From Sphingopyxis sp. QXT-31 (GTDB taxonomy: Bacteria; Pseudomonadota; Alphaproteobacteria; Sphingomonadales; Sphingomonadaceae), in assembly GCF_001984035.1 (NCBI RefSeq), contig NZ_CP019449.1, positions 248,001 to 312,000 on the forward strand: a stretch of DNA of 64,000 nucleotides, in the 5' to 3' direction. This document shows positions 672 through 39,638 of the stretch, one piece after another. The translations under genes were made by a program, and so were the position numbers. Position 1 is the first letter of the stretch. Each line of letters opens with the position of its first letter. The notes beneath the pieces were generated by a model, which had not been told where the DNA came from, did no database searches, and was given only the letters and a program-made list of their open reading frames with translations.

Positions 672-1085
672 TTAGCTCTCCACCCCCTTTGCCTTCCCCC
701 ACGCCCTAGCGGCGGTGTAGCCGAGATAGCCGGTGCCGAAGAGCGCGTAGAGCGGTTCGGGGATGCCGGCGAGATAGGCGTTCATGCCCTCGGCGATGCC
801 GCGCGCCATGTCGGGGCGCGCCGCGGCGATCAGCCCCATCGGGATCGCCCACAGCAAGAGCGCGTACATGACGTAGAGGAAGCTCGGCCGCGCGCGGCTG
901 GTCCAGGGGTCGGCGCTGTTCGCCTCGGCGACGATCGCCGCCATGCGCGTCCTGATCGCTTCCATCTCCTGGCTGCCCTCAAGCTTCAGCAGTTCGAGCT
1001 TGGCGCGGTCGCGCGCTTCGGGGTCGGGGATGATCTTGTCGATCAGCTTGGCGACGGGGCCGATCAGCCCTTCGATGATGCTCAT
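672..1085 (-). CDS. GTA-type 3TM holin
   Basis: A 137-residue protein with a charged amphipathic N-terminal half (about 1-66) and hydrophobic segments at about 68-88 (PSFLYVMYALLLWAIPMGL) and 111-128. This layout matches the holin family named for gene-transfer-agent release (GTA_holin_3TM). Such proteins perforate the inner membrane so that endolysin reaches the wall. I chose the ATG at 1085 because GAGGA precedes it; an upstream in-frame ATG at 1106 is less likely. It lies 53 bases downstream of the endolysin on the same strand, so the two probably form one lysis operon driven by the box at 1747-1777. Confidence 0.75.
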   Translation of the reverse strand: MSIIEGLIGPVAKLIDKIIPDPEARDRAKLELLKLEGSQEMEAIRTRMAAIVAEANSADPWTSRARPSFLYVMYALLLWAIPMGLIAAARPDMARGIAEGMNAYLAGIPEPLYALFGTGYLGYTAARAWGKAKGVES

Positions 1086-1138
1086 TTCGATGCTCCTCGG
1101 TTTCAAAGTTCAGGAAAGTTCAGCCCAATGACGCGTCT

Positions 1139-1714
1139 TCACGCGTGGCCCTGTCCGATGCGGTTCGCGAGCCAGCCGTAGAGGAACGCCTCCTGGCTCG
1201 GGCGGCGTTCGGCGAGTGCGATATAGCGCTCGCCCTGCAGCGCCTCGATCGCGCGCAGCAGCACCGTTTCGCCTCCGGCGCCGCGCACGCGGAGGAAGGC
1301 GTCGAGCGCGGCGAGGGTGCGCGGGCCGATCTCGCGGTCGACCGCGATATCGGGATAGTCGCGCGCGGCGCGGTTGAGCGCGTTGAGCGCGCGCTGGAGG
1401 AAGCCGGTCGCGGTGCCGCTGCCCATATTGACGCCGGTGTCGAAGAGTTCGGCGGCAATGGCGGGCGCGCGGCGCGCGACGCGGTCGAAGCCGGGGCGCT
1501 GCCAATAGAGGCGGCGGTAGATCGCCGCCGCGGCCTCGCGCGGCAGGTCGCGCATCGCGCCGCCATAGCCCTCGGCGCGGGCGACCGCCTGGGTGATGCC
1601 CCAGCAGGTTGGGCCGCCGCGGTCGGCGGGGTGGTTTACATAGCGGCCTTCGCGGTCGATGACGGCTTCGATCAGCGCGTCGGCTTCGAGCTCGGATGGG
1701 TGGGGTCTGGGCAT
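1139..1714 (-). CDS. glycoside hydrolase family 108 endolysin
   Basis: A 191-residue peptidoglycan hydrolase. The N-terminal motif DREGRYVNHPADRGGPTCWG matches the GH108 signature (usually EGGYVNDPxDxGGxTxxG), with Glu22 as the expected catalytic acid; the second G of EGG is replaced by R. The C-terminal half (from about 90, LFDTGVNMGSGTATGFLQRA) fits the peptidoglycan-binding domain that accompanies GH108. There is no signal peptide, consistent with holin-dependent release. I chose the ATG at 1714 because GGAGA lies nine bases upstream; the longer frame to 1756 would run into the shared promoter box. The GTA assignment comes from the holin partner and the shared box. Confidence 0.8.
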   Translation of the reverse strand: MPRPHPSELEADALIEAVIDREGRYVNHPADRGGPTCWGITQAVARAEGYGGAMRDLPREAAAAIYRRLYWQRPGFDRVARRAPAIAAELFDTGVNMGSGTATGFLQRALNALNRAARDYPDIAVDREIGPRTLAALDAFLRVRGAGGETVLLRAIEALQGERYIALAERRPSQEAFLYGWLANRIGQGHA

Positions 1715-1746
1715 GATTCGCGTCTCCGGTTGGTTGATTCGGCTAT

Positions 1747-1777
1747 AATGAACCATATGGGTGTTTTTTAGGAAAGG
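1747..1777 (-). promoter_or_regulatory. shared GTA-like promoter box (copy 1)
   Basis: On the minus strand this reads CCTTTCCTAAAAAACACC followed by CATATGGTTCATT. All 31 bases are identical at 39608-39638, and the core CTTTCCTAAAAAA also occurs at 8778-8790. The core (1764-1776) ends 49 bases before the endolysin start, in gene orientation. It is probably an activator site or promoter for endolysin-holin. Confidence 0.65.
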
Positions 1778-1786
1778 CTTTTCTCC

Positions 1787-2764
1787 ATGCGCGCATTATT
1801 GGTCGGCGAATTGGCGGAAAACCACGGCGGTTGCGCGCTGGTCGACTTGCCCGTTCCCGAGCCGGGGCCGGGCGCGGTGCGCGTGCGCGTGCGCGCGGCG
1901 GGGGTCAATTTCCCCGACCTGTTGATGACGCGCGGCGCCTATCAGCTGAAACCCGAGCTACCCTTCATGCCGGGGCTGGAGTTTGCGGGTGAGGTCGACG
2001 CGCTGGGAGAAGGCGTGTCGGGCTGGCAAGTTGGCGACGCGGTGATCGGCGGCAACCGCTTCGGCGCGATGGCGGAATATATCGTCGTTCCCGCGACGAA
2101 CCTGCGGCGCAAGCCTGAGCGGCTGAGCTGGGAGGAGGCCGCGGCCTATGGCGTCGCCTATCTCACCGCCTGGGTCGCGCTGACGCGCTGCGGGCAGGTG
2201 CAGTCGGGCGAATGGGTGCTGGTGCACGGCGCGGCGGGCGGCGTCGGGCTGGCGACGGTCGATCTGGCGCGGGCGCTTGGCGCGCGCGTGATCGCGGCGG
2301 CAAGCAGCGCGGAGAAGCGCGCGGCGGTGACGGAACTCTATGCCCCCGATGCGGTGATCGACGGCGCGCCGGGGTTTCGCGAGACGGTGAAGGAGCTGAC
2401 CGATGGCAAGGGCGCCGATGTGATCTTTGATCCGGTGGGCGGCGACGTGTTTGACGAATCGACGCGCTGCATCGCCTTCGGCGGCCGGCTGCTGGTGATC
2501 GGTTTCGCATCGGGGCGCATCCCCGAGGTGTCGGTCAATAGGCCGCTGATCAAGGGCTTTTCAGTCGTCGGGGTGCGCGCGGGCGAATATGGCCGGCGCT
2601 TTCCCGCGCGCGGCGCCGAGAATATCGCCTCGATCGACGCGCTGGCGGCCGAGGGAAAGATTCGGCCGCACGTCCATGCCGCGCTCGACCTTGCCGACTG
2701 GCGCGCGGGCTTTGCGATGCTCGAGCGGCGCGAGGTGGTCGGCAAGGTGGTTCTGACCGTCTGA
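1787..2764 (+). CDS. NADPH:quinone oxidoreductase family protein (MDR)
   Basis: A 325-residue medium-chain dehydrogenase/reductase of the zinc-free quinone-reductase type. The N-terminal GroES-like domain contains the family signature VNFPDLLMTRGAYQLKPELP followed by PGLEFAGEV. The Rossmann motif HGAAGGVGLATVDLARALGA sits near residue 145. It lacks the cysteine cluster of structural-zinc alcohol dehydrogenases. It likely reduces quinones or enones with NADPH; the substrate cannot be deduced. The gene runs away from the endolysin gene, and its start is 10 bases from the shared GTA box, which points the other way. Confidence 0.85.
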   Translation: MRALLVGELAENHGGCALVDLPVPEPGPGAVRVRVRAAGVNFPDLLMTRGAYQLKPELPFMPGLEFAGEVDALGEGVSGWQVGDAVIGGNRFGAMAEYIVVPATNLRRKPERLSWEEAAAYGVAYLTAWVALTRCGQVQSGEWVLVHGAAGGVGLATVDLARALGARVIAAASSAEKRAAVTELYAPDAVIDGAPGFRETVKELTDGKGADVIFDPVGGDVFDESTRCIAFGGRLLVIGFASGRIPEVSVNRPLIKGFSVVGVRAGEYGRRFPARGAENIASIDALAAEGKIRPHVHAALDLADWRAGFAMLERREVVGKVVLTV

Positions 2765-2905
2765 CGCCGGGCTCCGCCCGCGGTCGAGCCGCCGTGCATT
2801 CGCGGCGACCCGCACGGCGGTCCTATGGCCTTTGAACAATCGCATCGTCATAGCCGTGCCCGGGGGGTGAAGGCGGCCCCGCCGCCAAACCCGAAAGGAA
2901 TAGAC

Positions 2906-3217
2906 GTGAAGACATTGCTACTGATCGCCGCGCCGCTCGCGCTGGCCACCGCGGCGCATGCGGCCCAGACCGCGGGCGATGGCGACGCCCTGTTCGCCAA
3001 GCTCGACGCCAATGGCGACGGCAAGATCGACAAGGCCGAGCTGACCAAGGCGCATGAGGCGAAGGCGGCCGAGAAGGGCGACAAGACCCCGGTCGACAGC
3101 GCGAAGATCGACGCGATGATCTCGCGGATCGACACCAATGGCGACGGCGCGGTCGACAAGACCGAAATGGCCGCGACGCGCAAGGCGCCTGCCGCACCGG
3201 CCGAGCCGAAGCGCTGA
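2906..3217 (+). CDS. secreted EF-hand calcium-binding protein
   Basis: A 103-residue protein starting at GTG 2906 (AAAGGAA upstream). Residues 1-20 form a signal peptide (KTLLLIAAPLALATAAHA). Two canonical EF-hand loops follow, DANGDGKIDKAE and DTNGDGAVDKTE, each with Asp at positions 1 and 3 and acidic position 12, so Ca2+ binding is likely. The C-terminus is Ala/Pro-rich. The longer frame upstream (from 2825) has no signal peptide and is probably untranslated. The periplasmic role is unknown. Confidence 0.8.
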   Translation: MKTLLLIAAPLALATAAHAAQTAGDGDALFAKLDANGDGKIDKAELTKAHEAKAAEKGDKTPVDSAKIDAMISRIDTNGDGAVDKTEMAATRKAPAAPAEPKR

Positions 3218-3410
3218 TATCGGGGCGGCGGCCCTCGCGGGTCGCCGCCGACCGGTGGATCAGGTGAGCGCGATCTGCGCCGCCGCCTGCACCCGAAAAG
3301 CCCAGCCCGACGATGTAACGAGGGGCGCGACCGTCGCGCGCCTCGCCGATCGCTGAGAGAAGCGGGCGCCGGCCATTGTGCCCTAGAACGGTGGGCGTTT
3401 TCGAACAGAT

Positions 3411-3497
3411 TCGTTCGGCTTGAGCTTGTCGAAGAACTGCTCTTTCGTTCCGGGGTAGAAGCGAAGCAGGGTCCTTTGACGAGTTCAGGACGAACGG
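3411..3497. repeat. paired inverted repeat, family A (degenerate copy 2)
   Basis: The arms tgagcttgtcgaag and ctttgacgagttcagga with a cgaacgg tail match family A with several substitutions. This copy lies in the 407-base gap between the EF-hand gene and tRNA-Pro, in which I see no gene. Confidence 0.65.
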
Positions 3498-3624
3498 TGC
3501 CCGGTGGCGATGCGGTTATAATGCAGGACGCCCCAAAGGGCCATCGCCGCGCCAGAGCGCCGTGCGACTGGCAAGCGGTGGCCGGGCTCGCGCCATCGCA
3601 CACGCCATACCGATTTGATGTAAT

Positions 3625-3701
3625 TGGTCGGGACGAGAGGATTCGAACCTCCGACCCCCACACCCCCAGTGTGATGCGCTACCAGGCTGCGCTACGTCCC
3701 G
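3625..3701 (-). tRNA. tRNA-Pro (anticodon GGG)
   Basis: The reverse complement folds as a complete cloverleaf. The acceptor stem is CGGGACG/CGTCCCG, the anticodon arm is TCACA-CTGGGGG-TGTGG with anticodon GGG, the T-arm contains GGTTCGAATCC, and the CCA end is encoded (3625-3627). It decodes CCC (and CCU) proline codons. Neighbours on both sides are unrelated protein genes. Confidence 0.95.
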
Positions 3702-3950
3702 ACCGGCCCTGTTGGGCAGGCGAGGCCCCTAGCGCGGGTCGGCGGGGGATGCAAGGCCCCTGCGCGCGAAGATCGCATATGCGCCTTGAACTCGCGCGCC
3801 GCGGCCCCATTTCGGCCCTGCCTGCCGCGGGGGGACGGCACGCAGCCGCCGGTTGCACGCTCCGCCCCCGCGTGATAGGCGCCGCGCCATTATCTTGCGC
3901 GCCGACCCGGGTGGGGACGGCGGTGCTTTCGAACGGAAAGATTCTCATCG

Positions 3951-4283
3951 ATGTCGACGAATTTGCTTCTGAGCCAGGCGGCCGGATCTGGTGGTGGTGC
4001 TGCGGCCTTGGCCGCGCAGGTCGTCCCGCTGATCCTGATCTTCATCGTCTTCTGGTTCTTCCTGATCCGCCCGCAGCAGACGCGGATGAAGGAGCATCGC
4101 GCTAAGATCGCGGCGGTGAAGCCGCGCGACCAGGTGGTGACCGGCGGCGGCATCGTCGGCAAGGTCACCCGCGTCGACGATGATTTCGCCGATGTCGAAA
4201 TCGCGCAGGGCGTGAAGATCAAGGTCGTCAAGTCGACCCTGTCGGACGTGCTGCAGCCCGGCGCCAAGCCCGCCAACGACTGA
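3951..4283 (+). CDS. yajC: preprotein translocase subunit YajC
   Basis: A 110-residue inner-membrane protein with one transmembrane helix at about 22-42 (VVPLILIFIVFWFFLIRP) followed by the family motif RPQQTRMKEH and the cytoplasmic segment VVTGGGIVGKV. YajC associates with SecDF to assist SecYEG-dependent export. It lies directly upstream of secD and secF in the usual yajC-secD-secF order, on the same strand with a 52-base gap. Confidence 0.96.
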   Translation: MSTNLLLSQAAGSGGGAAALAAQVVPLILIFIVFWFFLIRPQQTRMKEHRAKIAAVKPRDQVVTGGGIVGKVTRVDDDFADVEIAQGVKIKVVKSTLSDVLQPGAKPAND

Positions 4284-4335
4284 CGCGGCGGCGCCCGCCG
4301 CGGTGGGCGCGCGCTCCTGGTATCGGACCAAAGAC

Positions 4336-5946
4336 ATGCTCGATTTCCCGCGCTGGAAAACCATCAGCATCTGCATCTCGTTGCTGCTCGGCATCCTGTT
4401 CGCCATCCCGACCTTCCTGCCGCAAAAGACCTTCGACCAGCTGCCGGGCTTTGCGCAGATGAAGGTCAACCTTGGGCTTGATCTCGCGGGCGGTAGCCAT
4501 TTGCTGCTCGAGGCCGACATCGCCGACCTCAACAAGACCCAGCTCTCCAACATGGAAAAGACCGTGCGCGTGTCGATGCGCGGCGAGACGGGGCCCGACG
4601 ACGATATCGCGATCGGCGATTTCAAAGCGTCGGGGAGCACGATCAGCTTCCTGGTGCGCGACCAGAATCAGCTCGACGATGCGCGCGACCGGCTGTTCCG
4701 CGAGACGCAGGGCGCCGGGCTGACCGGCCAGCGCGACTGGCAGATCGACGTCGTCGACAATACGCGGATCGTGATGACGCTGACCGCGGCGGGCCGCGAC
4801 CAGGCGATCGACCGCGCGATGGAGACCGCGCGCGAGATCATCGACAAGCGCGTCAACGAACTCGGCACGCGCGAACCGACCATCATCCGCGAGGGCAGCG
4901 ACCGTATCGTCGTGCAGGTCCCGGGCCTGCAGGATCCGAAGGCGCTGAAGGACCTGCTCGGTCGCACCGCGCGGCTCGAGTTCCGGATGGTCGATCCCAA
5001 TGGCACGGTCGGACCAGAGGGTCCGCTCAACGTGCCGATCGGCAGCGAATTCGTGCGCTATGCCCCCAATGAGGGCGGCGGCGCGCCGGGCGAAATTTTG
5101 AGCCGGCAGGTCATGATCAGCGGCGACCAGTTGATTGACGCGCGGCAGGATTTCAACCAGCAGCAGCTGCCCGCGGTGTCGATCCGTTTCGATTCGGCGG
5201 GGTCGAACACCTTCGCGCGCGTCACCGGCGCCAACGTCAACAAGCGCTTTGCGATGGTGCTCGACGGCCAGGTGCTGTCGGCACCGACGATCAACGAAGC
5301 GATCCTGGGCGGGCAGGCGCAGATTTCGGGCAGCTTCACGGTCCAGACCGCTAACGAGCTGGCGATCGCGCTGCGCTCGGGCTCGCTGCCGGTGAAGCTC
5401 GACGTCGTCGAGGAACGCACGGTCACCCCCGAACTCGGCAAGGATTCGATCGAGAAGGGCGCGATAGCGGGGATCATCGCGACGCTGTCGGTGCTGATGC
5501 TGATGCTCGTCGTTTACGGCCGTTTCGGCGTCTATGCGAATATCGCGCTGGCGTTCAACGTGGCGCTGATCATTGCGATCATGGCGTTCTTCAACGCGAC
5601 GCTGACCTTGCCGGGCATCGCCGGCTTCGTGCTGACGATCGGCGCCGCGGTCGACGCGAACGTGCTGATCAACGAGCGAATACGCGAGGAATTGAAACGC
5701 GGGCGACGCGTGTTCCAGGCGGTCGAGCTCGGCTATAGCGAGGCGAGCCGCGCGATCTTCGACGCCAACGTCACCAACGTCATCGCCGCGGCGCTGATGT
5801 TCTGGTTCGGTACCGGGCCGATCAAGGGCTTTGCCGTCGTGCTGACGATCGGCATCGTTACCAGCGTCTTCACCGCCGTCACCGTCACCCGCATGTTCGT
5901 CGCCCATTGGCTGCGCAGCGCGCGGCCGACGACGATCAACATTTAA
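4336..5946 (+). CDS. secD: protein translocase subunit SecD
   Basis: A 536-residue RND-superfamily export factor that uses the proton-motive force to pull translocating proteins into the periplasm. TM1 lies near residues 9-28; the SecD signature GLDLAGGSHLLLEAD is near 47-61; a large periplasmic domain follows; the C-terminal five-helix bundle contains GFVLTIGAAVDANVLINERI with the conserved Asp. I chose the ATG at 4336 (MLDFPRWK); an in-frame start 33 bases upstream would add a non-conserved leader. It is followed by secF after 16 bases. Confidence 0.96.
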   Translation: MLDFPRWKTISICISLLLGILFAIPTFLPQKTFDQLPGFAQMKVNLGLDLAGGSHLLLEADIADLNKTQLSNMEKTVRVSMRGETGPDDDIAIGDFKASGSTISFLVRDQNQLDDARDRLFRETQGAGLTGQRDWQIDVVDNTRIVMTLTAAGRDQAIDRAMETAREIIDKRVNELGTREPTIIREGSDRIVVQVPGLQDPKALKDLLGRTARLEFRMVDPNGTVGPEGPLNVPIGSEFVRYAPNEGGGAPGEILSRQVMISGDQLIDARQDFNQQQLPAVSIRFDSAGSNTFARVTGANVNKRFAMVLDGQVLSAPTINEAILGGQAQISGSFTVQTANELAIALRSGSLPVKLDVVEERTVTPELGKDSIEKGAIAGIIATLSVLMLMLVVYGRFGVYANIALAFNVALIIAIMAFFNATLTLPGIAGFVLTIGAAVDANVLINERIREELKRGRRVFQAVELGYSEASRAIFDANVTNVIAAALMFWFGTGPIKGFAVVLTIGIVTSVFTAVTVTRMFVAHWLRSARPTTINI

Positions 5947-5962
5947 AGGAGGGAGCAGAGAG

Positions 5963-6943
5963 ATGCGCTTGCTGAAACTCGTCCCCGACGACACCAACAT
6001 CGACTTCCTGCGCTGGCGCAAGCTCGCGTCCTTCATGAGCTTTTTCCTCGTCGCGGTGTCGATCGCGCTGGTGGCAGTGAAGGGGCTGAACCTCGGCGTC
6101 GACTTCGTCGGCGGCCAGTCGGTCCGCGTCGAATTCACCCAGACGATGCCGCCGATCGACGACATTCGCGAAAAGGTCGGCGAGATCGGCCTGGGCGAGG
6201 CGACGATCCAGCAGTTCGGATCGGACAAGGCGGTGTCGATCCGCACCGCGCTGCCCGAGGGCGACAAGGCCGTCGCCGAGCGGGCGGGGCAGCAGCTGGT
6301 GGCCGGGATCCAAAAGGCTTTCCCGACGGCCAAGACGGGCTCGGTCGAGACGGTGTCGGGCAAGGTGTCGGGCGAATTGCTGCGCACCGGTGCGATCAGC
6401 CTGGCGCTCGCGATCCTGGGCATCTCGATCTACATCTGGATCCGCTTCGAATGGCAGTTCGGGGTCGGGGCGCTCGGGCGCCTGTTCCACGAGGTGGCGC
6501 TGACCTTCGGCCTGTTCGCGGTGACGCAGATGCAGTTCGACCTGAACAGCGTCGCGGCGCTGCTGACGATCGTCGGCTATTCGCTGAACGACACGATCGT
6601 GGTCTACGACCGCATTCGCGAAAACCTCAAGAAATACCGGAAGATGGAGATCATTCCGCTGCTCAACCTCAGCATCAACGAGACGCTGTCGCGCACCGTG
6701 ATGACGACCGTTGCGATGCTGCTGGCGCTCGGCGTGCTGCTGATCTTCGGCCCCGACGTGATCTTCGGCTTCACCGCGGCGATGCTGTTCGGCGTGTTCA
6801 TCGGCGGCTATTCGTCGGTGCTGATGTCGACCCCGGTGCTGGTCTGGCTGAAGGTGGGGCCCGACAGCTTCGTGCCCAGGACGAGCGCCGGGATCATGGG
6901 CGGCGAACGCGTCGAGCGGAAGGACGACGGCGCGGTCGTCTGA
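5963..6943 (+). CDS. secF: protein translocase subunit SecF
   Basis: A 326-residue partner of SecD. The TM1 region (FMSFFLVAVSIALVAVKG) is followed by the SecF signature LNLGVDFVGGQSVRVEF. The C-terminal helices carry VGYSLNDTIVVYDRIRENLK, the conserved SecF motif. A strong ribosome site (AAAGGAGG) precedes ATG 5963. It is the last gene of the operon and is followed by the terminator at 6972-6998. Confidence 0.96.
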   Translation: MRLLKLVPDDTNIDFLRWRKLASFMSFFLVAVSIALVAVKGLNLGVDFVGGQSVRVEFTQTMPPIDDIREKVGEIGLGEATIQQFGSDKAVSIRTALPEGDKAVAERAGQQLVAGIQKAFPTAKTGSVETVSGKVSGELLRTGAISLALAILGISIYIWIRFEWQFGVGALGRLFHEVALTFGLFAVTQMQFDLNSVAALLTIVGYSLNDTIVVYDRIRENLKKYRKMEIIPLLNLSINETLSRTVMTTVAMLLALGVLLIFGPDVIFGFTAAMLFGVFIGGYSSVLMSTPVLVWLKVGPDSFVPRTSAGIMGGERVERKDDGAVV

Positions 6944-6971
6944 TCGCTGCGACGGTCCTGACGGAACGGTG

Positions 6972-6998
6972 AGGGGGGCTTCGGCTCCCCTTATTTTT
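6972..6998. terminator. terminator after secF, shared with the convergent glycosyltransferase gene
   Basis: An 8-bp stem (AGGGGGGC/GCTCCCCT, one G-U pair) closes a TTCG loop and is followed by TTATTTTT on the plus strand. Its 3' arm reaches the stop codon of the convergent glycosyltransferase gene at 6991. It is strong as a plus-strand terminator for yajC-secD-secF; function on the other strand is less certain. Confidence 0.8.
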
Positions 6999-8166: not shown

Positions 8167-8171
8167 TTGGC

Positions 8172-8732
8172 TCAGAGGCTGCGGATCAATCGCACCGCGA
8201 CCGCGGCCCAGGGCGGGTTGCTAACGACCTGCTGCCGCTGCCCGACCCCGAGCGGGAGCAGGTGCAGTTTCTCGCCGTCGACGTTGAGCAGGCGCGCGAA
8301 GAAGAAGCGGCCTGCGGGGCGCGGGACGAGCAGGTCGCGGTTGAGCGCGCCCGCCCAGTCGCCCTCGATGCGTCGGCACCAGATTTCGTCGCCCGCGCGA
8401 TAATCGCCGATCGACGAGGTCACGCGCACCGCGACCATATCCTCGCCCGGGCGCGCGGTGAGCGCCTGCTCGACGCGCGTCGGCGCCTCGACCCCGTCGG
8501 CGCCGAGCAGCGCGGTGACGGTGAGCTGGGTGTCCTGCGGCAGTTGCACGAGCTCGGCGGCGTCGACGCCGAGCGCCTTGGCGATGCGGTTCATCCAGCC
8601 CAGCGACAGCGTGCGCGTGCCCGTCTCGAGGCGGCCGATCGTCTGCGCGGTGGTCGGCGGGTCGCAGCGTTGCGCCACATCTTCGAGGGTCAGGCGCTTG
8701 GCGCGGCGCACGGCGCGGATGCTGTTGATCAT
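8172..8732 (-). CDS. XRE-family repressor with S24-like C-terminal domain
   Basis: A 186-residue regulator. Residues 1-55 form an XRE/Cro-CI helix-turn-helix (IRAVRRAKRLTLEDVAQRCD, then AQTIGRLETGTRTLS). Residues from about 90 resemble the S24/LexA peptidase fold (VRVTSSIGDYRAGDEIW), but the usual GxSM serine and the later lysine are not evident, so autocleavage seems lost. I chose ATG 8732 because the longer frame (to 8927) would overlap the divergent DUF6456 gene. In Caulobacter an XRE-type repressor (RogA, by my recollection) controls the GTA activators; the divergent arrangement here suggests the same job. Confidence 0.75.
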   Translation of the reverse strand: MINSIRAVRRAKRLTLEDVAQRCDPPTTAQTIGRLETGTRTLSLGWMNRIAKALGVDAAELVQLPQDTQLTVTALLGADGVEAPTRVEQALTARPGEDMVAVRVTSSIGDYRAGDEIWCRRIEGDWAGALNRDLLVPRPAGRFFFARLLNVDGEKLHLLPLGVGQRQQVVSNPPWAAVAVRLIRSL

Positions 8733-8755
8733 GGCGAACCTATCATGCAATTTTT

Positions 8756-8771
8756 CCGATAACCAAATCGG
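8756..8771. promoter_or_regulatory. palindromic operator between repressor and DUF6456 gene
   Basis: CCGAT-AACCAA-ATCGG is a perfect 5-base inverted repeat in the 100-base divergent intergenic region. It lies 24 bases before the repressor start and directly next to the CTTTCCTAAAAAA box. It is a plausible binding site for the XRE protein acting on both genes. Confidence 0.5.
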
Positions 8772-8777
8772 TTTCTT

Positions 8778-8790
8778 CTTTCCTAAAAAA
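8778..8790 (+). promoter_or_regulatory. shared GTA-like promoter box (copy 2, core only)
   Basis: CTTTCCTAAAAAA, the same core as at 1764-1776 and 39625-39637 (both minus). It is oriented toward the DUF6456 gene and ends 42 bases before its ATG, which suggests autoregulation. The flanking bases differ from the other two copies. Confidence 0.6.
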
Positions 8791-9315: not shown

Positions 9316-9339
9316 CGCTGCCGCAGACTAAATAATATT

Positions 9340-13247: not shown

Positions 13248-13325
13248 GGCGACCATAGCTCAGTTGGTTAGAGCGCCGGTTTGTGGTACCGGAGGTCGCG
13301 GGTTCGAGCCCCGTTGGTCGCCCCA
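13248..13325 (+). tRNA. tRNA-His (anticodon GTG)
   Basis: A complete cloverleaf with the extra G-1 typical of tRNA-His (13248), acceptor GCGACCA/TGGTCGC, D-arm with AGCTCAGTTGGTTAGAGC, anticodon loop TTTGTGG (GTG), T-loop TTCGAGC and encoded CCA (13323-13325). It is the only plus-strand tRNA in the window. Confidence 0.96.
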
Positions 13326-31974: not shown

Positions 31975-32203
31975 GCGACGTTTAACGGCCGCGGCCGGAC
32001 AGGATTAAGCGCGGTTTACCATGAGCGCGCCGATCCGCGGCAAGCGCCCGATATGACGCATTTTTTTCTCCATCGACCCGCGAGATTATGGCGCGATCCG
32101 AAAAAAGATGAAAAAAAATCGCAAGGCCTGTCGATTCGAGCGCGCGCCGTTCGTCGTCTGGACAGGAGGCCGATGCCGGCTTTCGATTTTGAGGAGGAAT
32201 ACG

Positions 32204-32635
32204 ATGCGTGTGATGGTTTTCGTCAAGGCGACCGAGGACAGCGAAAAGGGCCTGCCGCCGACCGACGAGATGACCGAGATGTTCGAGGCGATGGGCAAGT
32301 TCAACGAGGAACTCGTCAACGCCGGCGTGATGGTCGACGGCGACGGGCTGAAGCCCTCGTCGCACGGCAAGCGCATCGCGTTCGACGGCCCGAACCGGTC
32401 GGTGATCGACGGTCCCTTCGCAGAGACGCGCGAGTTGGTCGCGGGTTACTGGGTCTGGGAAGTCAAGGACATGGACGAGGCGGTCGCCTGGGCGAAGCGC
32501 TGTCCGAACCCGATGCCGGGGCCGAGCGAACTCGAAATCCGCCCCTTCTACGAGATGGAGGATTTCGGCGATGCGGTGACCCCCGAGATCCTGGCGCACG
32601 ACCAGATGCTGCGCGACAAGCTCGCCGGCGAATAA
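32204..32635 (+). CDS. YCII-domain (DGPF) protein
   Basis: A 143-residue protein with the YCII/DGPF signature: RVMVFVKATEDSEKGLPPTD, then VIDGPFAETRELVAGYWVWE and the alpha-beta end SELEIRPFYEMEDFGD. Start ATG 32204 follows GAGGAGGAA. YCII proteins are small dimeric alpha-beta proteins that co-occur with ECF42-type sigma factors. The sigma factor gene follows 57 bases downstream, so co-transcription is likely. Confidence 0.87.
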   Translation: MRVMVFVKATEDSEKGLPPTDEMTEMFEAMGKFNEELVNAGVMVDGDGLKPSSHGKRIAFDGPNRSVIDGPFAETRELVAGYWVWEVKDMDEAVAWAKRCPNPMPGPSELEIRPFYEMEDFGDAVTPEILAHDQMLRDKLAGE

Positions 32636-32692
32636 GCGCCGCGCGCCGCCGCCATGCTTGCCTCTCCCGGCGCTTTCGCCGAGAAGGCCGGC

Positions 32693-33964
32693 ATGGCGGA
32701 ATCGGCCGCAGAGCACACCCACCGCGCGATCGAGGCGGTGTACCGGATCGAGCGCGCGCGGCTGATCGCCGGCCTCGCGCGGATGACGCGCGACGTCGAC
32801 CGCGCCGAGGAACTGGCGCAGGAGGCGCTGCTCACTGCGCTGACCGACTGGCCGCGGATGGGCGTCCCCGACAATCCCCGCGCCTGGCTGATGGCGGCGG
32901 CGAAGCGGCGCGCGATCGACGGCTTTCGGCGCAGCGCGATGGCGAGCCGCAAGCATGACGAACTGGCACGCGACATGGACGAAGCCGACGACAGCGTCGC
33001 GGCGATCGAGGCTGCGATCGACGACGAACTGGGCGACGAACTGCTCGGGCTGATCTTCGCCGCCTGTCACCCGGTGATCGCGCCCGAAGCGCGCGCCGCG
33101 CTGACGCTGCGGCTGGTCGGCGGGCTGACGGTCGAGGAGATTGCGCGCGCCTTCCTGTCGAACGAGCCCGCGATCGCGGCGCGGATCACGCGTGCCAAGA
33201 AGGCGATCGCCAAGGCGGGCGTCGCGTTCGAGGTGCCGCGCGGCGCCGAGCTGGCGGCGCGGCGCGCGTCGGTGCTCGAGGTCGTGTATCTCATCTTCAA
33301 CGAGGGCTATGCCGCGACCGCGGGGCCGTCGCTGGTGCGCCCGCCGCTCTGCGCCGAGGCGCAGCGGCTGGGGCGCATTCTGGCGGGGCTGATGCCGGAC
33401 GAGCCCGAGGTGCTGGGGCTGCTGGCGCTGATGGAGATCCAGGCGTCGCGGCTGGTCGCGCGCGCCGGGCCCGACGGGCGCTTCGTGCCGCTGACCGAAC
33501 AGAACCGGGCGCGCTGGGACCAGCTGCTGATCCGCCGCGGGCTGAAGGCGCTGGAGCGGGCCGAGGCGCTGGGCGGTGCCGACGGGCCCTATGCGCTGCA
33601 GGCGGCGCTGGCGGCGTGCCATGCGCGGGCGCGGCGCGCCGAGGATACCGACTGGGCACGGATCGCCGGGCTCTACGACCGGCTGGGGCAGGTCATGCCG
33701 TCGCCGGTGGTCGAACTGAACCGCGCGGTCGCGCACAGCATGGCATTCGGCCCCGAGGCGGGGCTGGAGCTGGTCGATGCAATCGCGGACGAGGCGCTGC
33801 TGCGCAACTATGCCCCACTGCCCGCCGCTCGCGGCGATTTCCTGTTCCGCGCCGGGCGGCTGGGCGAGGCGAAGGCGGCGTTCGAGACGGCCGCGACGCT
33901 CGCGCGCAACGACCGCGAGCGCGAATGGCTGCTGGCGCGGGCGATGCGATGTGAAACCCGGTGA
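32693..33964 (+). CDS. ECF42-type RNA polymerase sigma factor
   Basis: A 423-residue protein. Sigma2 region: TRDVDRAEELAQEALLTALT then AKRRAIDGFRR. Sigma4 region: GGLTVEEIARAFLSNEPAIA. A long C-terminal extension (from about 185, including EVVYLIFNEGYAATAG and LNRAVAHSMAFGPEAGLELV) is the TPR-like DUF6596 domain that defines the ECF42 group. ECF42 members have no classical anti-sigma factor and are controlled through this extension and YCII proteins. I chose ATG 32693; the frame also opens at 32654. Confidence 0.88.
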   Translation: MAESAAEHTHRAIEAVYRIERARLIAGLARMTRDVDRAEELAQEALLTALTDWPRMGVPDNPRAWLMAAAKRRAIDGFRRSAMASRKHDELARDMDEADDSVAAIEAAIDDELGDELLGLIFAACHPVIAPEARAALTLRLVGGLTVEEIARAFLSNEPAIAARITRAKKAIAKAGVAFEVPRGAELAARRASVLEVVYLIFNEGYAATAGPSLVRPPLCAEAQRLGRILAGLMPDEPEVLGLLALMEIQASRLVARAGPDGRFVPLTEQNRARWDQLLIRRGLKALERAEALGGADGPYALQAALAACHARARRAEDTDWARIAGLYDRLGQVMPSPVVELNRAVAHSMAFGPEAGLELVDAIADEALLRNYAPLPAARGDFLFRAGRLGEAKAAFETAATLARNDREREWLLARAMRCETR

Positions 33965-34039
33965 GGGCGGCTTGGCCTTTCGCGCGGCTGTCGATATGGT
34001 TTTCGCCAGAGGCCGGTAAAGACTAGCGGGAGCCGATCG

Positions 34040-34477
34040 ATGGCGGGCAATAAGGAGGTCGTGCTGCTGTCGGGCGGCAATCCGCAGATCGCCAAGGGCG
34101 ACGGCGACCGGCCGGTGCAGGAGTATATCGCGGCGATGCCGGGGTGGAAGAGCGCGGCGGGCAAGAAGCTCGACGCGCTAATCGTCGCCACGGTGCCCGA
34201 GGTCGAGAAGGCGGTGCGCTGGAACTCGCCCTTCTATGGCGTGCCGGGGCAGGGGTGGTTCCTCTGTTTCCACTGCTTCAACAAGTACATCAAGATCACC
34301 TGGTTCCGCGGTCGGCAGCTCGACCCTGTGCCGCCGGTCGGATCGAAGGACCCCGATGCGCGCTATTTCCATATCCATGAGGATGAGGCGATCGACGAGG
34401 AATTGCTGGTGAGCTGGATCCGGCAGGCGGCCGCGATCCCCGGCTGGATATCCCATGCAAAGGACAAGGCGAAATGA
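34040..34477 (+). CDS. DUF1801 protein (first of two)
   Basis: A 145-residue protein with the DUF1801/YdhG fold pattern: RPVQEYIAAMPGWKSAAGKK, EVEKAVRWNSPFYGVPGQGW then FHCFNKYIKITWFRG. Structurally these resemble iron-chaperone or frataxin-like folds; the function is unknown. It overlaps the next DUF1801 gene by four bases (ATGA). The group YCII-sigma-DUF1801-DUF1801 is on one strand. Confidence 0.82.
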   Translation: MAGNKEVVLLSGGNPQIAKGDGDRPVQEYIAAMPGWKSAAGKKLDALIVATVPEVEKAVRWNSPFYGVPGQGWFLCFHCFNKYIKITWFRGRQLDPVPPVGSKDPDARYFHIHEDEAIDEELLVSWIRQAAAIPGWISHAKDKAK

Positions 34478-34851
34478 GCGAGAAGAGCCCCTCCGAACGG
34501 ATCGACGGCCGTATCGCCGAGCTCGGCGACTGGCGCGGCGACGTGCTGGCCAAGGCGCGCGCGCTGATCAAGGTGGCGATCCCCGACGTCGTCGAGGAAT
34601 GGAAGTGGCGCGGGGTGCCGACCTGGTATGCGGGCGGCAAGATCGTCTGCACCGGCGAGACGTACAAGGACAAGGTCAAGCTGACCTTTGCCAAGGGGGC
34701 GGCGCTGGACGACCCCAAGCGGCTGTTCAATTCCAGCCTCGACGGCAATGCGCGGCGCGCGATCGATATCGGCGCGGGCGACGGCATCGACGAGGGCGCG
34801 CTGAAAGCGCTGTTAGTGGCGGCCGCCGATTTGAACGCAGGGCGCAGTTAG
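34474..34851 (+). CDS. DUF1801 protein (second of two)
   Basis: A 125-residue relative of the preceding gene: RIDGRIAELGDWRGDVLAKA, PDVVEEWKWRGVPTWYAGGK and TYKDKVKLTFAKGAALDDPK. The two proteins share the W-x-x-P/G-Y-GGK pattern, which suggests divergence after duplication or a heteromer. It overlaps the convergent gene at its 3' end by four bases. Confidence 0.82.
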   Translation: MSEKSPSERIDGRIAELGDWRGDVLAKARALIKVAIPDVVEEWKWRGVPTWYAGGKIVCTGETYKDKVKLTFAKGAALDDPKRLFNSSLDGNARRAIDIGAGDGIDEGALKALLVAAADLNAGRS

Positions 34852-36845
34852 TCGTCCTCGTCCAGCGGCGGCGGCGCGGCGACTGCTTTCGGGCCTTCGA
34901 CCGACGGCGCCCGCCGGGGCGCGATCCTGCGGGCTATCGCGTGGAAGCCGTCGATCACCCGATGCCGGATCGATCGGCGTAACAACAACGTGTCGGCAAG
35001 GTAGAGAAAGAGGAAGGCGATAGCGATCCCGCCGCCGATCATGTGCATCCATTCATAGGGTGCGGGCTGCGATTTGAGCAGGCCATAGCCATAATAGAGC
35101 GCCGCGACGATGCCGATGTCTTCGGCACGTTCGAGCAGTTTTCTCGTGTCGTCGCCCTGCCGGACCGATGCTTCGGTCGCCCGCTTGACCTCGCCCGTCT
35201 GTTCGACCGATGTCGCCGCCTGGAGCATGATCTCCGCTGTGTGGCGCCACGAATGGAAGCGGTCGATTCGCCGGCCGAGCGCGCCATAGCGGATGCCGAA
35301 ACCGGCAATCTGTTCGAACAGCTGGAAGACATAACGGCGTGCGAATTCGTCATAGGGCTGCCAGCCCTCGATGCGCCGGATTCTGAGGTCGGGCATCCGC
35401 CGGTCATAGGCATCGGCATAATAGCGCGATCGTTCGACGCGGAAGACGAGGCCGCCGCTAGCGCAGGCGTTGATCGCCGAATAGTCCAGCGAGATGTCGA
35501 GCAGGCCATCGAACTGCCGCACGAAATCATCGGCGCCCGCTGTCCCGCCGCGGACCGCGCCCAAGGATTTCATCTTTGCCTCAAGCTGGTTCAGTTCCTC
35601 GCCGATCCGGCGGATTTCCTGCCCCGCCTGCACCAGATTGCGGACGCGCTGATATTTTTTGAGCAACTCCGGCGGCGTGTCTTCGCCAAGCGGCACCGCA
35701 TATTTGTCGCGGATTTCCATCTCGAGCTCGTCGTTGCGCCGCTTGCCGTCGAAGTCCATCAGCGCCGACAGACGAAGCTCGCCCATCACATGCAGGCGGT
35801 GGATAAAGCGGCCGAGCTGTGCCTCTGACGTACCGTCATAGGCGACGAGATAATTGACCTGGCTGCGCTGATCGAATTTCATCGAAATCGGGGAGGCATA
35901 GAGCGCGCGGCCGCTGAGCATGCCGCACACCACCGCTTCGGCCGCGAATTCGTCGGTGTCTCCGCCGTCGCCGCCATGGTGCCAGCGGGCGCCGATGAAA
36001 TTGCGGATGAAACCCGCATGGGTATCGGTGAATCTCTGCGTCATTTTGGTCAGTCCCTGCTCGGGCGCGGGCGCTTGATGCAGGCTGTCGACGCTGGAGA
36101 ATTTGGCGGCGGCCGCGGCCGGCAGAACTAGTCCGTGAAATTCGGCGACCGCCCGCTCGAACATAGGTACCTGGCCGCCGAAACCGATCGTCGAGTCACG
36201 GAACAACCGCGCCTTGTCGCGGCCGATGGTGCCGATGGCCGAGCGCATTGCGTCGGCATCATAGGATATTTCTTCGGACATCAGTCGGCTGATGTCGGGA
36301 AAGGGCATGCCGCAGCCGCGGTCGAAAATGTCTCCGATGGCAGCGATCTGCCCGTCGCCGGCGGTCGCGGCCAGCGCGGCGTCGATCTTTCGACGGGGTT
36401 CGCAACCCGCCTCCATCTGATCGACGATGAAGGTGAAAGCCAGCGTCTCCAGATAGACCGCGACGCGCAGCCGGACCCGGTAGGCTGCGCCTGCTTCGGG
36501 CGTCAGCAGGAAGGTCGAGCTTTCGCTGGCATATTCCTGATTGGCGGCCGGCGTCTCGCCGTGGATCAGCTTGATCCAGAACAGGCGATCCTCGGTACCG
36601 CCGAACGCGGCGCGGCAGGCCGATATCGTCCGGTTCATGCGGAACAGCAGCGCCGCCCAGATGTCCTGACGGTTGGTATTGTGCGGGCGCCAGCGTGGAT
36701 TGCGGCTGCCGGGGATACGAAACAGCAGGTGGCGGGTCAGCGCCGGTGCATCCATCGGCACCGAGGGGCGCTGGCTCGACACCGCGCGCCGGGCCTTCTC
36801 CCGGGCAAACTCCTCCTGTGCCGCGCGCCGCGCACCCTTGTTCAT
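34848..36845 (-). CDS. unknown 665-residue membrane-anchored protein
   Basis: I do not recognise this gene. The N-terminus is basic and helical (KGARRAAQEEFAREKARRAV). The long middle region is soluble, with helical stretches near 400-430 (RVRNLVQAGQEIRRIGEELN). Residues around 580-640 hold one or two hydrophobic helices (HMIGGGIAIAFLFLYLADTL), and the tail is Pro/Arg-rich. The arrangement near the end (ERAEDIGIVAALYYGYGLL) is faintly like the C-terminus of DUF3422 or CorA-type proteins. I chose ATG 36845 (GGGAGA upstream). Composition is slightly less GC-rich than neighbours, and the upstream flank is clearly AT-rich, so acquisition by transfer is possible. Confidence 0.6.
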   Translation of the reverse strand: MNKGARRAAQEEFAREKARRAVSSQRPSVPMDAPALTRHLLFRIPGSRNPRWRPHNTNRQDIWAALLFRMNRTISACRAAFGGTEDRLFWIKLIHGETPAANQEYASESSTFLLTPEAGAAYRVRLRVAVYLETLAFTFIVDQMEAGCEPRRKIDAALAATAGDGQIAAIGDIFDRGCGMPFPDISRLMSEEISYDADAMRSAIGTIGRDKARLFRDSTIGFGGQVPMFERAVAEFHGLVLPAAAAAKFSSVDSLHQAPAPEQGLTKMTQRFTDTHAGFIRNFIGARWHHGGDGGDTDEFAAEAVVCGMLSGRALYASPISMKFDQRSQVNYLVAYDGTSEAQLGRFIHRLHVMGELRLSALMDFDGKRRNDELEMEIRDKYAVPLGEDTPPELLKKYQRVRNLVQAGQEIRRIGEELNQLEAKMKSLGAVRGGTAGADDFVRQFDGLLDISLDYSAINACASGGLVFRVERSRYYADAYDRRMPDLRIRRIEGWQPYDEFARRYVFQLFEQIAGFGIRYGALGRRIDRFHSWRHTAEIMLQAATSVEQTGEVKRATEASVRQGDDTRKLLERAEDIGIVAALYYGYGLLKSQPAPYEWMHMIGGGIAIAFLFLYLADTLLLRRSIRHRVIDGFHAIARRIAPRRAPSVEGPKAVAAPPPLDEDD

Positions 36846-36935
36846 CGCCCATTCTCCCACCCTCGGTTCCGGTGCCGCTGGCCTAAGTCATCCCGGAATC
36901 ATTATTATATTATTGTCTTCCTTCCGGGGCATGAG

Positions 36936-37550
36936 TCAAATATCTTTCAATATCGGGCCGAAAGATGACTTGAGCGATGCTTTGTCAACTTGGTCCATAC
37001 CTTGATTTGTTTCCGCCCGAAGCAATTTCCCCATCCTGATCAGCGGGACGCTCACCCCGCCGGGGCCGGGGGCTTCGACGCGCTCGATCGGGGTGTAGCC
37101 GCAGGCGCGGTAGAGCGGCTCGCCCGACAGCGTTGCCATCATTTCGGCGCGGGCGAAACCGGCGGCGCGGGCGGCGTCTTCGCAGAGCTGCATCACCAGC
37201 CGCCCGACGCCGCGGCGGGCGAAGGCGGGGTGGGTGTACATGGCGCGGATGCGCGCGGCATCGACCGCGGGGTCGAGCGCGGCGGGGTCGCGGAGGTCCT
37301 TGCTGTGGTCGCCGCCGTAGAGCGTCGCGCGGTGCGACCAGCCGCCGCATCCCGCGATGGTGCCGCCCGCATCCTCGACGATGAAATAGGTGCCGTCGGC
37401 GATGAGCTGGGTATCGAGGCCCATGACGGCGTGGCTCGCGGCGATCTGCTCGGGGTTGAGAAAGTCTTTTTGCAACTCGGCGATGGCGAGCGCCATCACG
37501 GCGCGCAGCGCATCGAGGTCGGCGGGGGCGGCGCGGCGGTGGGTGAACAT
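36936..37550 (-). CDS. GNAT N-acetyltransferase
   Basis: A 204-residue acetyltransferase starting MFTHRRAAPADLDALRAVMA. The acetyl-CoA loop is RAMYTHPAFARRGVGRLVMQ, followed by ARAEMMATLSGEPLYRACGY, all typical GNAT elements. The substrate is unknown. The last 24 codons (after KLLRAETNQ) are AT-rich and unlike the rest of the gene, suggesting the original C-terminus was replaced when the neighbouring DNA was acquired. Confidence 0.83.
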   Translation of the reverse strand: MFTHRRAAPADLDALRAVMALAIAELQKDFLNPEQIAASHAVMGLDTQLIADGTYFIVEDAGGTIAGCGGWSHRATLYGGDHSKDLRDPAALDPAVDAARIRAMYTHPAFARRGVGRLVMQLCEDAARAAGFARAEMMATLSGEPLYRACGYTPIERVEAPGPGGVSVPLIRMGKLLRAETNQGMDQVDKASLKSSFGPILKDI

Positions 37551-37599
37551 CGGCTTGCCATGACGCGTCCGCGCCGCCCGCGTCAATCTTGCTTTGTCG

Positions 37600-37821
37600 T
37601 CAATAGCTGCCCGGCGGGCCCGGGGCGCGATAGAAGCGGTGGCGCGCTACCGTGCCCTCGATGAGATGTTTCTTGAGCTTGCCGCGCATCAGTTCGGCGT
37701 CGTCCGGCGAGACGCAGACGAGGCGCGTGCCGCCGTTCGGCAGCGGTTCGATCGCGCTGATCACGATGCCGGCGGTGCGGCACATGTCGGTGACGCCGGC
37801 TTCGTCGAGCGTGACGTTCAT
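37600..37821 (-). CDS. small conserved-looking hypothetical protein
   Basis: A 73-residue protein (MNVTLDEAGVTDMCRTAGIV, ending RHRFYRAPGPPGSY). No domain is recognised; it looks like a compact alpha-beta protein with charged helix DDAELMRGKLKKHLIEG. It lies just downstream of the ParS/MbcA-like gene on the same strand with overlapping ends, so both are probably co-transcribed. Confidence 0.55.
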   Translation of the reverse strand: MNVTLDEAGVTDMCRTAGIVISAIEPLPNGGTRLVCVSPDDAELMRGKLKKHLIEGTVARHRFYRAPGPPGSY

Positions 37822-37829
37822 CGCGCGGC

Positions 37830-38111
37830 TCATGCGGCGCCAGCCGGGACGGCCGAGGCGCGGATGATCCCGGCGACGCGGACATAACCTTCGGCGCTGG
37901 CGGTGGCGATGTCGAGCGGCCGCCCGCCGAGTGCGGGATGATCGCTGTTCAGAAAGGCGATGGCGGGATCGCGCCCGCCCATCTGGAGATAGGCGAGCTG
38001 GCTGATGTCGCCCTGGCGCCGGGCGTCGGCGGGGGGAAGCGGGGTGCCGCGCTTGCGGAAATGGCTGTTGGTGCGGCGGGTGGCGGCGGGTTTGGCGGGC
38101 GGCTGGTCCAT
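37830..38111 (-). CDS. ParS/MbcA-like (DUF2384) small protein
   Basis: A 93-residue protein. The basic N-terminus (KPAATRRTNSHFRKRGTPLP) is followed by ISQLAYLQMGGRDPAIAFLN and HPALGGRPLDIATASAEGYV, which match the toxin-binding DUF2384 domain of Xre/MbcA/ParS antitoxins. The usual Xre helix-turn-helix part is missing or very short. No RES-domain toxin gene follows. It may be an orphan antitoxin or a protein with another role. I chose ATG 38111; the longer frame is unsupported. Confidence 0.62.
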   Translation of the reverse strand: MDQPPAKPAATRRTNSHFRKRGTPLPPADARRQGDISQLAYLQMGGRDPAIAFLNSDHPALGGRPLDIATASAEGYVRVAGIIRASAVPAGAA

Positions 38112-38398
38112 GGGACGGCTCCTGTCGGTAAGCGGGAGCGCACGTCGGTCTCTCAGTCGCGGCGGCCTACGGATGACGTGTGCCGCGATACGAATGATAT
38201 GGGGGCGCGGGGGGCGGATTGTAAGGGCGTCGGCGTGGGCGTTCGTCATGGCTTCTCCGGTGGCGGCGGCGCGGCTTTGGACTCTCGTTCGATCCGGCAT
38301 GCGGTGGGCTTCGATCTGGTTCGCGCGAAGACGCGAAGGCGCGAAGAGGCTGGCGCGCATTTCGGATGGCGGTTTTGGGGTGGAAAGCTGCCGTAAAG

Positions 38399-38521
38399 CC
38401 CTCTCCCCTTGAGCGAAGCTTGGAGAGGGGTGCTTGGACGCTGGCGGTCGGAAACCCCTCTCAACTCCGGCTAGGCAGCAGGCTGCCAAGCCTGCGTATC
38501 TCTCCCCTCAAGGGGAGAGAG
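38399..38521. repeat. compound inverted repeats in a 458-base gap
   Basis: Arms ccctctccccttgagcgaag/cttggagagggg and tctcccctcaaggggagaga, with an inner hairpin gcagcaggctgc. This resembles the family E arrangement without close identity. The remainder of the gap (38112-38569) shows no convincing gene. Confidence 0.55.
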
Positions 38522-38569
38522 CATAACCCTGCGAACGGCCACTTCCGCCCGAAAACGGCTCTCCACGCC

Positions 38570-39574
38570 TCACCCCTTCCGCGTCTTCGCGGCTTTGGAC
38601 GCGACGTTTTCATGCCCGCCCTCACGGTCGTTCGCGGGTTCGGGAAAGCCGAAGAAGGCGCGGCGGGCGGCTTCGCCGGCGGCGCGGAGGGGAGCGAGTT
38701 CCTGGTTATAGGCGTCCTCATAGGCCTCGATCTCGTCGGGATCGAGGGTGCGTTCGTAATCGGGGTCGCCGAACTGACCTTCCTCGTCGCCGAGAAAGTC
38801 GCCCGGCGGCGGGAAGTTGGTGCGCAGCTCGTCCTTTTCCTCGTCGTGCCAGACGGTCATCGCCTCGGCCTCTTCCTCGGGGGTCGGATCGGGGAGCGGC
38901 GCGCGGTCGGGATCGGCGGAAAACTGCGCAACTTCATTCGCGATCGGGGTGTCCTGCCACAGCGAAGCGAGGGGGTTAGCGCGATTGTCGCGGGCGGCGA
39001 GCCAGAGCGCCAGCGCGGCGGCCATGCCGGGTTGCGGGGCGCTTTCGGGGCGGTCGGCGCCGGTGTCGTCGGCGGCATGCGTGTCCGCAAGGACGGCGCG
39101 TGCGGCTTCTGCAACGTCGAAGAGCGACAGGAAGCCCGGCCAGTCGCCGGCGATGACCTGCGCCAGCATTTCCTCGCCGGCGCGCGCACGGGTTTCGACC
39201 ATGCGGTCGAGCCGCGCGAGCATCGCGAGGCCGAGGCGGCTGTCGATGCGGCGGCGCTTATAGAGGCTGCGCTCTTCCTCGCGATAGACGATGGTCGTCT
39301 CCTCATGGCCATAGATGGCGCGGTCGAGCAGCTCGTCGGCGATCCGCCCGCGCGCGATCAGCACCGCCGCCGCCCAGCCGAGCCGGAACGCTGCGCCCGC
39401 GGGCCGCTGCTTCAGCTGATAGGCGGCGGTGGGCGACATGCCGACACGGTCGCACGCGATGCGCACCGATCCGGTGACGGCGACATGCTCGAGGAACTCG
39501 CGCTGGAGCCGCGGGGTCCAGTGGTAGCTGGCGGGGGTGGGGATTTGCGTGGGGTCGTGGTCGAAGTCTTCCAT
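38570..39574 (-). CDS. HTH protein resembling a phage/GTA small terminase
   Basis: A 334-residue protein. Residues 20-60 (TPRLQREFLEHVAVTGSVRI then DRVGMSPTAAYQLKQR) form the helix-turn-helix typical of small terminase subunits of phages in alphaproteobacteria. Residues 62-110 (FRLGWAAAVLIARGRIADEL, then RAIYGHEETTIVYREEERSL) match the following helical linker. The C-terminal half is acidic and low-complexity. It is preceded by the same 31-base promoter box as the endolysin operon, which is the main reason to connect it with the GTA set. No large terminase is nearby. It could instead be another regulator. Confidence 0.6.
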   Translation of the reverse strand: MEDFDHDPTQIPTPASYHWTPRLQREFLEHVAVTGSVRIACDRVGMSPTAAYQLKQRPAGAAFRLGWAAAVLIARGRIADELLDRAIYGHEETTIVYREEERSLYKRRRIDSRLGLAMLARLDRMVETRARAGEEMLAQVIAGDWPGFLSLFDVAEAARAVLADTHAADDTGADRPESAPQPGMAAALALWLAARDNRANPLASLWQDTPIANEVAQFSADPDRAPLPDPTPEEEAEAMTVWHDEEKDELRTNFPPPGDFLGDEEGQFGDPDYERTLDPDEIEAYEDAYNQELAPLRAAGEAARRAFFGFPEPANDREGGHENVASKAAKTRKG

Positions 39575-39607
39575 TGATTCGCTCCTTCGGTTAGGTGAAA
39601 CCGACAG

Positions 39608-39638
39608 AATGAACCATATGGGTGTTTTTTAGGAAAGG
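39608..39638 (-). promoter_or_regulatory. shared GTA-like promoter box (copy 3)
   Basis: Identical over 31 bases to 1747-1777. The core CTTTCCTAAAAAA (39625-39637, minus strand) ends 50 bases before the ATG of the terminase-like gene. Immediately beyond it (from about 39640) the sequence turns AT-rich, marking the edge of the DUF262-HEPN cassette. Confidence 0.65.

Follow-up and report, generated by a model that had tools for sequence, protein, structure and literature searches.

A composite promoter element common to lysis, activator and orphan small-terminase genes of Sphingopyxis, and its possible place in a dispersed gene-transfer-agent regulon

Introduction

In the gene transfer agent (GTA) of Rhodobacter capsulatus (RcGTA), published accounts describe the activator GafA as binding the -10/-35 regions and its own promoter, with dispersed lysis genes under the same control, and report that GafA homologs carry the annotation DUF6456 (PMC9638019). 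For Caulobacter crescentus (CcGTA), GafZ is described as sigma-like, while XRE proteins act on the activator and one of them, CdxB, also on lysis genes (PMC10688885, PMC13236601). It is also reported that GafYZ lets the polymerase pass a terminator (PMC11150451) and that homologs of the R. capsulatus lysis genes are missing from Caulobacter (PMC9632790).

The window analysed here is a stretch of 64,000 nucleotides (positions 248001-312000) of the genome of Sphingopyxis sp. QXT-31, which consists of a single contig of 4.29 Mb. It contains a 13-base box (CTTTCCTAAAAAA, box A) before an endolysin-holin operon, a gene for a DUF6456 regulator of the GafA family and a gene for an orphan small-terminase-like protein (TerS). 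An initial annotation made from the sequence alone had read these three loci as a dispersed GTA regulon controlled through the box.

Results

Box A occurs in the window in three exact copies, and still in three when up to two mismatches are allowed (0.11 expected); none of 100 shuffled windows holds three matches. The copies lie where the initial annotation had placed them and point at their genes, the gaps to the start codons of lysin (ATG at 1714), DUF6456 (8833) and TerS (39574) being 49, 42 and 50 nt as it had given them. The same 31 bases are again found in common to the copies before lysin and TerS, and the gene identities proposed then are borne out by the profile matches in Table 1.

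Table 1. Features of the window, numbered from its first base
Feature	Position	Strand	Evidence
Box A (CTTTCCTAAAAAA), lysin-holin promoter	1764..1776	-	exact match
Box A, DUF6456 promoter	8778..8790	+	exact match
Box A, orphan TerS promoter	39625..39637	-	exact match
Operator half CACCCATATGGTT, XRE-type, lysin promoter	1751..1763	-	pattern match; CC-N5-GGTT kept in congeners
Operator half CACCCATATGGTT, TerS promoter	39612..39624	-	pattern match
Operator AACCAAATCGGTT, DUF6456 promoter	8761..8773	+	pattern match; conserved in Sphingopyxis
Direct repeat TGAACTTTCC-TGAACTTTGA ('right box'), between lysin and holin	1103..1122	-	repeat pattern
Endolysin, GH108 + PG_binding_3, 191 aa	1139..1714	-	Glyco_hydro_108 1.7e-26
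Holin, GTA_holin_3TM, 137 aa	672..1085	-	GTA_holin_3TM 9e-33
DUF6456 (GafA-family) regulator, 160 aa	8833..9315	+	PF20057 7.8e-42
XRE-family regulator, 186 aa, candidate operator owner	8172..8732	- (divergent)	HTH_31 8.3e-10
Orphan small-terminase-like protein, 334 aa	38570..39574	-	phrog_4044 terminase small subunit 1.7e-7; small-terminase-like model
Sigma-like protein with DUF6596	32654-33964	+	Sigma70_r2, r4_2
Gene downstream of orphan TerS	37830-38489	-	weak Xre/MbcA/ParS antitoxin-like C-terminal match, below Pfam's cut-off
GmrSD-type restriction gene, then HEPN (MAE_28990/RiboL-PSP) gene	39653-41487	+	
tRNA-Pro(ggg) gene	3625-3701	-	
tRNA-His(gtg) gene	13249-13325	+	

The box belongs to a composite element, whose left half it forms: CTTTCCTA[AC]A is followed by an operator of the type AACC-N5-GGTT, and 34 bp are conserved (46 bits, in a matrix built from congeners only). 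This matrix finds only the lysin (53.8 bits) and TerS (43.3 bits) sites in the window; 19 of 20 shuffled windows contain nothing above 3 bits, and the remaining one reaches 18.9. The operator-type site directly adjoins the boxes of lysin and TerS, and CC-N5-GGTT stands at the same place in the congener lysin loci printed with the box. The DUF6456 copy has only the left half of the 34-bp element in common with the others, and its operator precedes the box at a distance of 4 nt. The pattern [ACT]ACC-N5-GGTT occurs at six distinct places in the window, three of them at the three boxes; its count of eight is matched by 2 of 100 shuffles, so the number alone is weak. The distance of CTTTCCTA[AC]A from the ATG is 37 or 38 nt for short orphan TerS genes and mostly 61-64 nt for lysin and long TerS genes.

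Across the whole genome a 28-base pattern with at most three mismatches matches 15 places, against none for the reversed pattern; seven precede orphan TerS genes, one precedes the lysin gene and seven are gene-less or unassigned. Exact copies of the 13-mer number four, the fourth (L004, C1:2663736) lying near an ISXO2-like transposase gene, with the apparent other half of its unit about 2.4 kb away (L368, C1:2661269). A related pattern (at most two mismatches) is present in 21 of 30 genomes of the genus, QXT-31 being counted here and in the following loci, and in 0 of 20 others. The core box precedes lysin in 27/28 and DUF6456 in 28/29 Sphingopyxis loci, where any core no more than 170 or 190 nt from the protein motif was counted, and TerS in all 22 loci with a recognised motif of the open reading frame (ORF; 29 given, seven unrecognised). 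In a stricter scan, the box stands before a start codon in 25 of 30 lysin loci (two of the 30 from other genera). With one letter of leeway, operator and box are found together in all 29 Sphingopyxis DUF6456 promoters, spaced by 21 nt in 28 and by 22 nt in one. The box and its nearly constant spacing have thus been retained by relatives at these three kinds of gene, a conservation that the initial annotation had required of the regulon. The activator gene and the GTA-type lysis genes, although the latter lie outside the cluster, have a promoter element in common. The composite promoter of the lysis, activator and orphan TerS genes is real.

The DUF6456 gene is flanked by a divergent gene for an XRE-family regulator, and an XRE-like ORF adjoins DUF6456 in most GTA loci of other genera. 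In 11 XRE-DUF6456 gaps of other genera, the full operator is found in six and ATAACC-N5-GG in ten, the full pattern occurring 12 times on both strands in the 40 kb around such gaps; one genome of another family (L202) has CTTTCCTACAAGAT inside the gap. The XRE protein is the candidate owner of the AACC-N5-GGTT operator. It is not called RogA here, as no Pfam or NCBIfam hit at E 0.01 points to a LexA/S24-like C-terminal domain, and a PDB sequence search with the protein returned nothing informative. The DUF6456 protein lacks an N-terminal part that is present in other genera according to the alignment, and the C-terminal half of its structural model resembles a sigma region-4 fold, a match not significant alone. 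Its correspondence to the C-terminal part of GafA rests on published passages and on length. Given the annotation of GafA homologs and a modelled C-terminal half like a -35-binding sigma domain, DUF6456 is a plausible predicted reader of the box. The window also encodes a second sigma-like protein, between the DUF6456 and TerS loci, and two tRNA genes (Table 1).

The seven box-linked TerS genes, of which the terminase-like gene of the window is one, are paralogs scattered over the chromosome. A search of 60 genomes for the family gives matches in 54, with eight in QXT-31, 0-7 in congeners and 0-2 in other genera. All 11 members of the set examined (A1) match phrog_4044 (best 4.6e-22), a small-terminase-like model was obtained for the window protein, and the TerS models contain a helix-turn-helix (HTH); a PDB sequence search with set A1 gave no hit. 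Matches in other genera mostly belong to a gene series XRE (divergent), DUF6456, TerS, TerL, with which a GTA cluster begins, and the exact core is absent from the 1100 nt before the TerL motif in 17/17 such loci (18 given, motif seen in 17). A tree of 34 box-linked orphans and ten GTA-linked TerS proteins sets the two groups apart with support of 97/100, the GTA TerS of QXT-31 having a very long branch and an unsure placement. The terminase-like gene named in the initial annotation matches the small-terminase family and, with the other box-linked paralogs, stands apart from the GTA terminases.

For the short orphan family, the best 80 of 105 relatives in named genomes were taken, of which 75 are evaluable; the Sphingopyxis set was chosen by row, and a few of its loci are titled only Sphingomonadaceae or Alphaproteobacteria. 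An in-frame start follows CT[TG]TCCTA at a distance of exactly 37 or 38 nt in 29/29 loci of the Sphingopyxis set and in 36/46 others, while 96 other offsets give 16 hits altogether and no more than four at any one. AACC-N5-GGTT directly follows the box in several of the non-Sphingopyxis loci (e.g. L276, L297, L303 and L316), and none of the 46 shows a TerL motif in the 0.2-2.0 kb of downstream sequence covered. Beside the TerS gene of the window, no large terminase is present among nine ORFs picked from 32654-43981, which belong to DUF3422, HEPN, GNAT, Xre/MbcA-like or sigma-like families or to none. On one side, divergent from TerS, lies the GmrSD-type gene, which with the following HEPN gene may form a defence pair. 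The role of the orphans is the weakest part of the analysis, and they may be packaging partners of the GTA or DNA-binding regulators. Literature searches turned up no description of an orphan small-terminase family with a common position-locked promoter, and among the papers listed for the element's sequence strings none is about promoters by its title.

The right box is a direct repeat whose 20-base pattern, TGAACTTTCC-TGAACTTTGG, is found, with one mismatch allowed, 22 times in QXT-31 (once when reversed as a control) and 42 times in the congener G005. Box A lies 86-155 bp upstream of 26 of 28 sampled right boxes, one more being the lysin locus (box at 654), and in QXT-31 a box-like core lies within 259 bp of 10 of 12 further right boxes. 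A second gene-less class consists of the box, an ATG, a few codons and the ...LKATKETF end of short TerS genes, and looks, from its sequence, like internal TerS deletions. The short gene-less box units, of which there are dozens, are probably related to box-TerS cassettes and shortened by internal deletion. At 21/21 placed congener loci, a unit that precedes a helicase-like gene in QXT-31 is absent. No locus-specific target duplication was found in 16 units, where matched flanks (6.9) are no more alike than mismatched ones (7.2), and duplication of the type left by miniature inverted-repeat transposable elements (MITEs) was rejected on this ground. Eleven short gene-less units of the congener G032 (L057-L064, L067, L069, L070) have a near-constant tail, GCTAACCCCTTGTTCGC..GATGGGGCGTCAACTTAGTCAACTTCCGC, and are possibly small RNAs or miniature elements; Rfam gave nothing at gathering score for 13 loci.

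PF09343, found in 37 of 60 genomes, serves as the marker of the capsid cluster; GTA_TIM (PF13547) is uninformative, as it is absent from 60/60 genomes although a Caulobacter control is positive. The PF09343 gene of QXT-31 (C1:2416090-2416692, 7.3e-73), with TerS-TerL upstream, marks an RcGTA-like main cluster at about 2.412-2.429 Mb on the minus strand. The GTA promoter was compared in 15 of 17 stretches, two having been dropped with TerL unrecognised, and in 13 of the 15 (QXT-31 included) an AACC-N5-GGT-type operator lies upstream of TTGACATCG, at 21 nt in 12 and 20 nt in one. In the DUF6456 promoter, the operator and the CCTA[AC]A that ends the box are likewise 21 nt apart. The capsid cluster carries the operator next to a normal TTGACA, and it is this operator, not the box, that links it to the box genes. 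All 15 GTA leaders (that of QXT-31, L238, at about 2.429 Mb, and 14 congeners) have a conserved GC-rich hairpin before the TerS start, a candidate attenuator. Its consensus has 12 pairs, four of them changed on both sides in at least one sequence, and a covariation term of +0.2, which is unfavourable, so that conservation is the main support for the pairing. In the 30 Sphingopyxis genomes G000-G029, the lysin gene has been lost or broken, or is matched only distantly, in 4/8 without the GTA marker versus 2/22 with it (p 0.03), a weak association uncorrected for kinship; lysin is intact in the other four marker-negative genomes.

Discussion

On balance, the probable setting is a dispersed regulon associated with the GTA, with the box as the upstream half of its core promoter, DUF6456 as reader, the XRE protein as gate and the capsid cluster joined by the operator. 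The last six bases of the box (CCTACA/CCTAAA) would stand in place of the -35 hexamer, because CCTA[AC]A has the same 21-nt spacing from the operator as TTGACA, and the box would cover the -35 region if transcription starts at or near the ATG of the short TerS genes, which would then be transcribed leaderless or nearly so. The sigma region-4-like half of DUF6456 would read this -35 sequence, by analogy with the C-terminal part of GafA, which binds the -10/-35 regions in Rhodobacter, and would recruit RNA polymerase to three kinds of target, namely the DUF6456 gene itself, the lysin-holin operon and the orphan TerS genes. The divergent XRE protein would bind AACC-N5-GGTT and gate the box genes together with the capsid cluster.

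Two sets of observations weigh against the regulon as the initial annotation had proposed it. The 35 kb around the capsid cluster of QXT-31 contain no CTTTCCTA core (best matrix score 10.3), and only one of 16 congener GTA stretches (G016) has the box, which scores 18.6 bits and lies upstream of TerS-TerL with an ATG 36 nt beyond it; the presence of the box before the main capsid cluster, for which the initial annotation had suggested looking, is not borne out. The box is also found at many places that have no GTA gene, as seven of the 15 genome sites and the dozens of gene-less units indicate, and so by itself is neither a mark of a GTA gene nor exclusive to GTAs; its occurrence before orphan TerS genes extends to other genera. 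The original proposal is thus partly supported: the conserved box at three kinds of gene and DUF6456 as a plausible reader speak for it, whereas the box does not extend to the capsid genes. The gene-less units speak at the same time for an unlikely alternative without any regulon. In it, box A would form the left border of a family of dispersed repeats or mobile cassettes, made up of box, TerS gene and right end and including copies with internal deletions, and lysin and DUF6456 would have acquired such ends by chance. The regular pairing of right boxes with an upstream box, their copy numbers here and in G005 and the unit absent from the placed congener loci agree with it; yet throughout the genus the box has a fixed position in the promoters of lysin and DUF6456, unlike in the scattered units, the order of operator and box at DUF6456 differs from that of the cassettes, and the flanks show no locus-specific duplication. 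Chance recurrence of an AT-rich 13-mer has a negligible probability, being refuted by the shuffled windows, the reversed control of the longer pattern and the conservation across the genus.

It is rather unlikely that the box is read by something other than DUF6456. Candidates would be an alternative sigma factor, RNA polymerase of the ordinary kind aided by some activator, or orphan TerS proteins that regulate their own genes through their HTH. Before the TerS genes themselves, whose protein models include that domain, the box varies very little, a second sigma-like protein is encoded in the window, and the mapped Caulobacter GafY and GafZ elements look different (PMC11150451). However, the box also precedes lysin and DUF6456 itself, and economy favours as reader a sigma-4-like DUF6456 protein whose own promoter contains the box. 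Beyond the DUF6456-read regulon favoured here lies a far-reaching and quite improbable extension, in which a domesticated GTA was dismantled into an order-wide regulon, DUF6456 is the lone sigma-4-like reader of the -35 code CTTTCCTACA, and the orphan TerS proteins, co-expressed with the lysis genes, bind the TGAACTTTCC-TGAACTTTGG direct repeats (10-bp period) as chromosomal pac-like sites, steering packaging to chosen loci.

Comparison with known systems

The gene-less units resemble MITE-like families with deletion derivatives in their copy-number differences, their shortness and one presence/absence polymorphism, but differ in having no locus-specific target duplication and no transposase tied to them. 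Unlike a phage small terminase of the Sf6 gp1 type, the orphan TerS genes are multi-copy with a common promoter and have no large terminase among the neighbours scanned; from the GTA TerS they are separated in the tree. They are now shown to share a position-locked promoter in many genera of Sphingomonadales.

As in RcGTA, there is a DUF6456-family activator gene, and the activator would control dispersed lysis genes and bind its own promoter; in contrast to RcGTA, DUF6456 is N-truncated here, and the box stands at lysis, orphan TerS and activator genes and is absent from the capsid cluster. CcGTA differs in its missing lysis genes of the R. capsulatus type (PMC9632790) and in its mapped YBE/ZBE elements, which do not resemble the box (PMC11150451). 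It would be similar in the control by a sigma-like regulator together with XRE proteins (GafYZ/RogA/CdxB), and the leader hairpin of the Sphingopyxis GTA recalls the terminator passed by GafYZ (PMC11150451). How GTA producers couple capsid production, lysis and packaging across genes that are megabases from one another is known mainly from Rhodobacter and Caulobacter; for Sphingopyxis there is now an explicit cis-element, with candidates for its reader and for the repressor.
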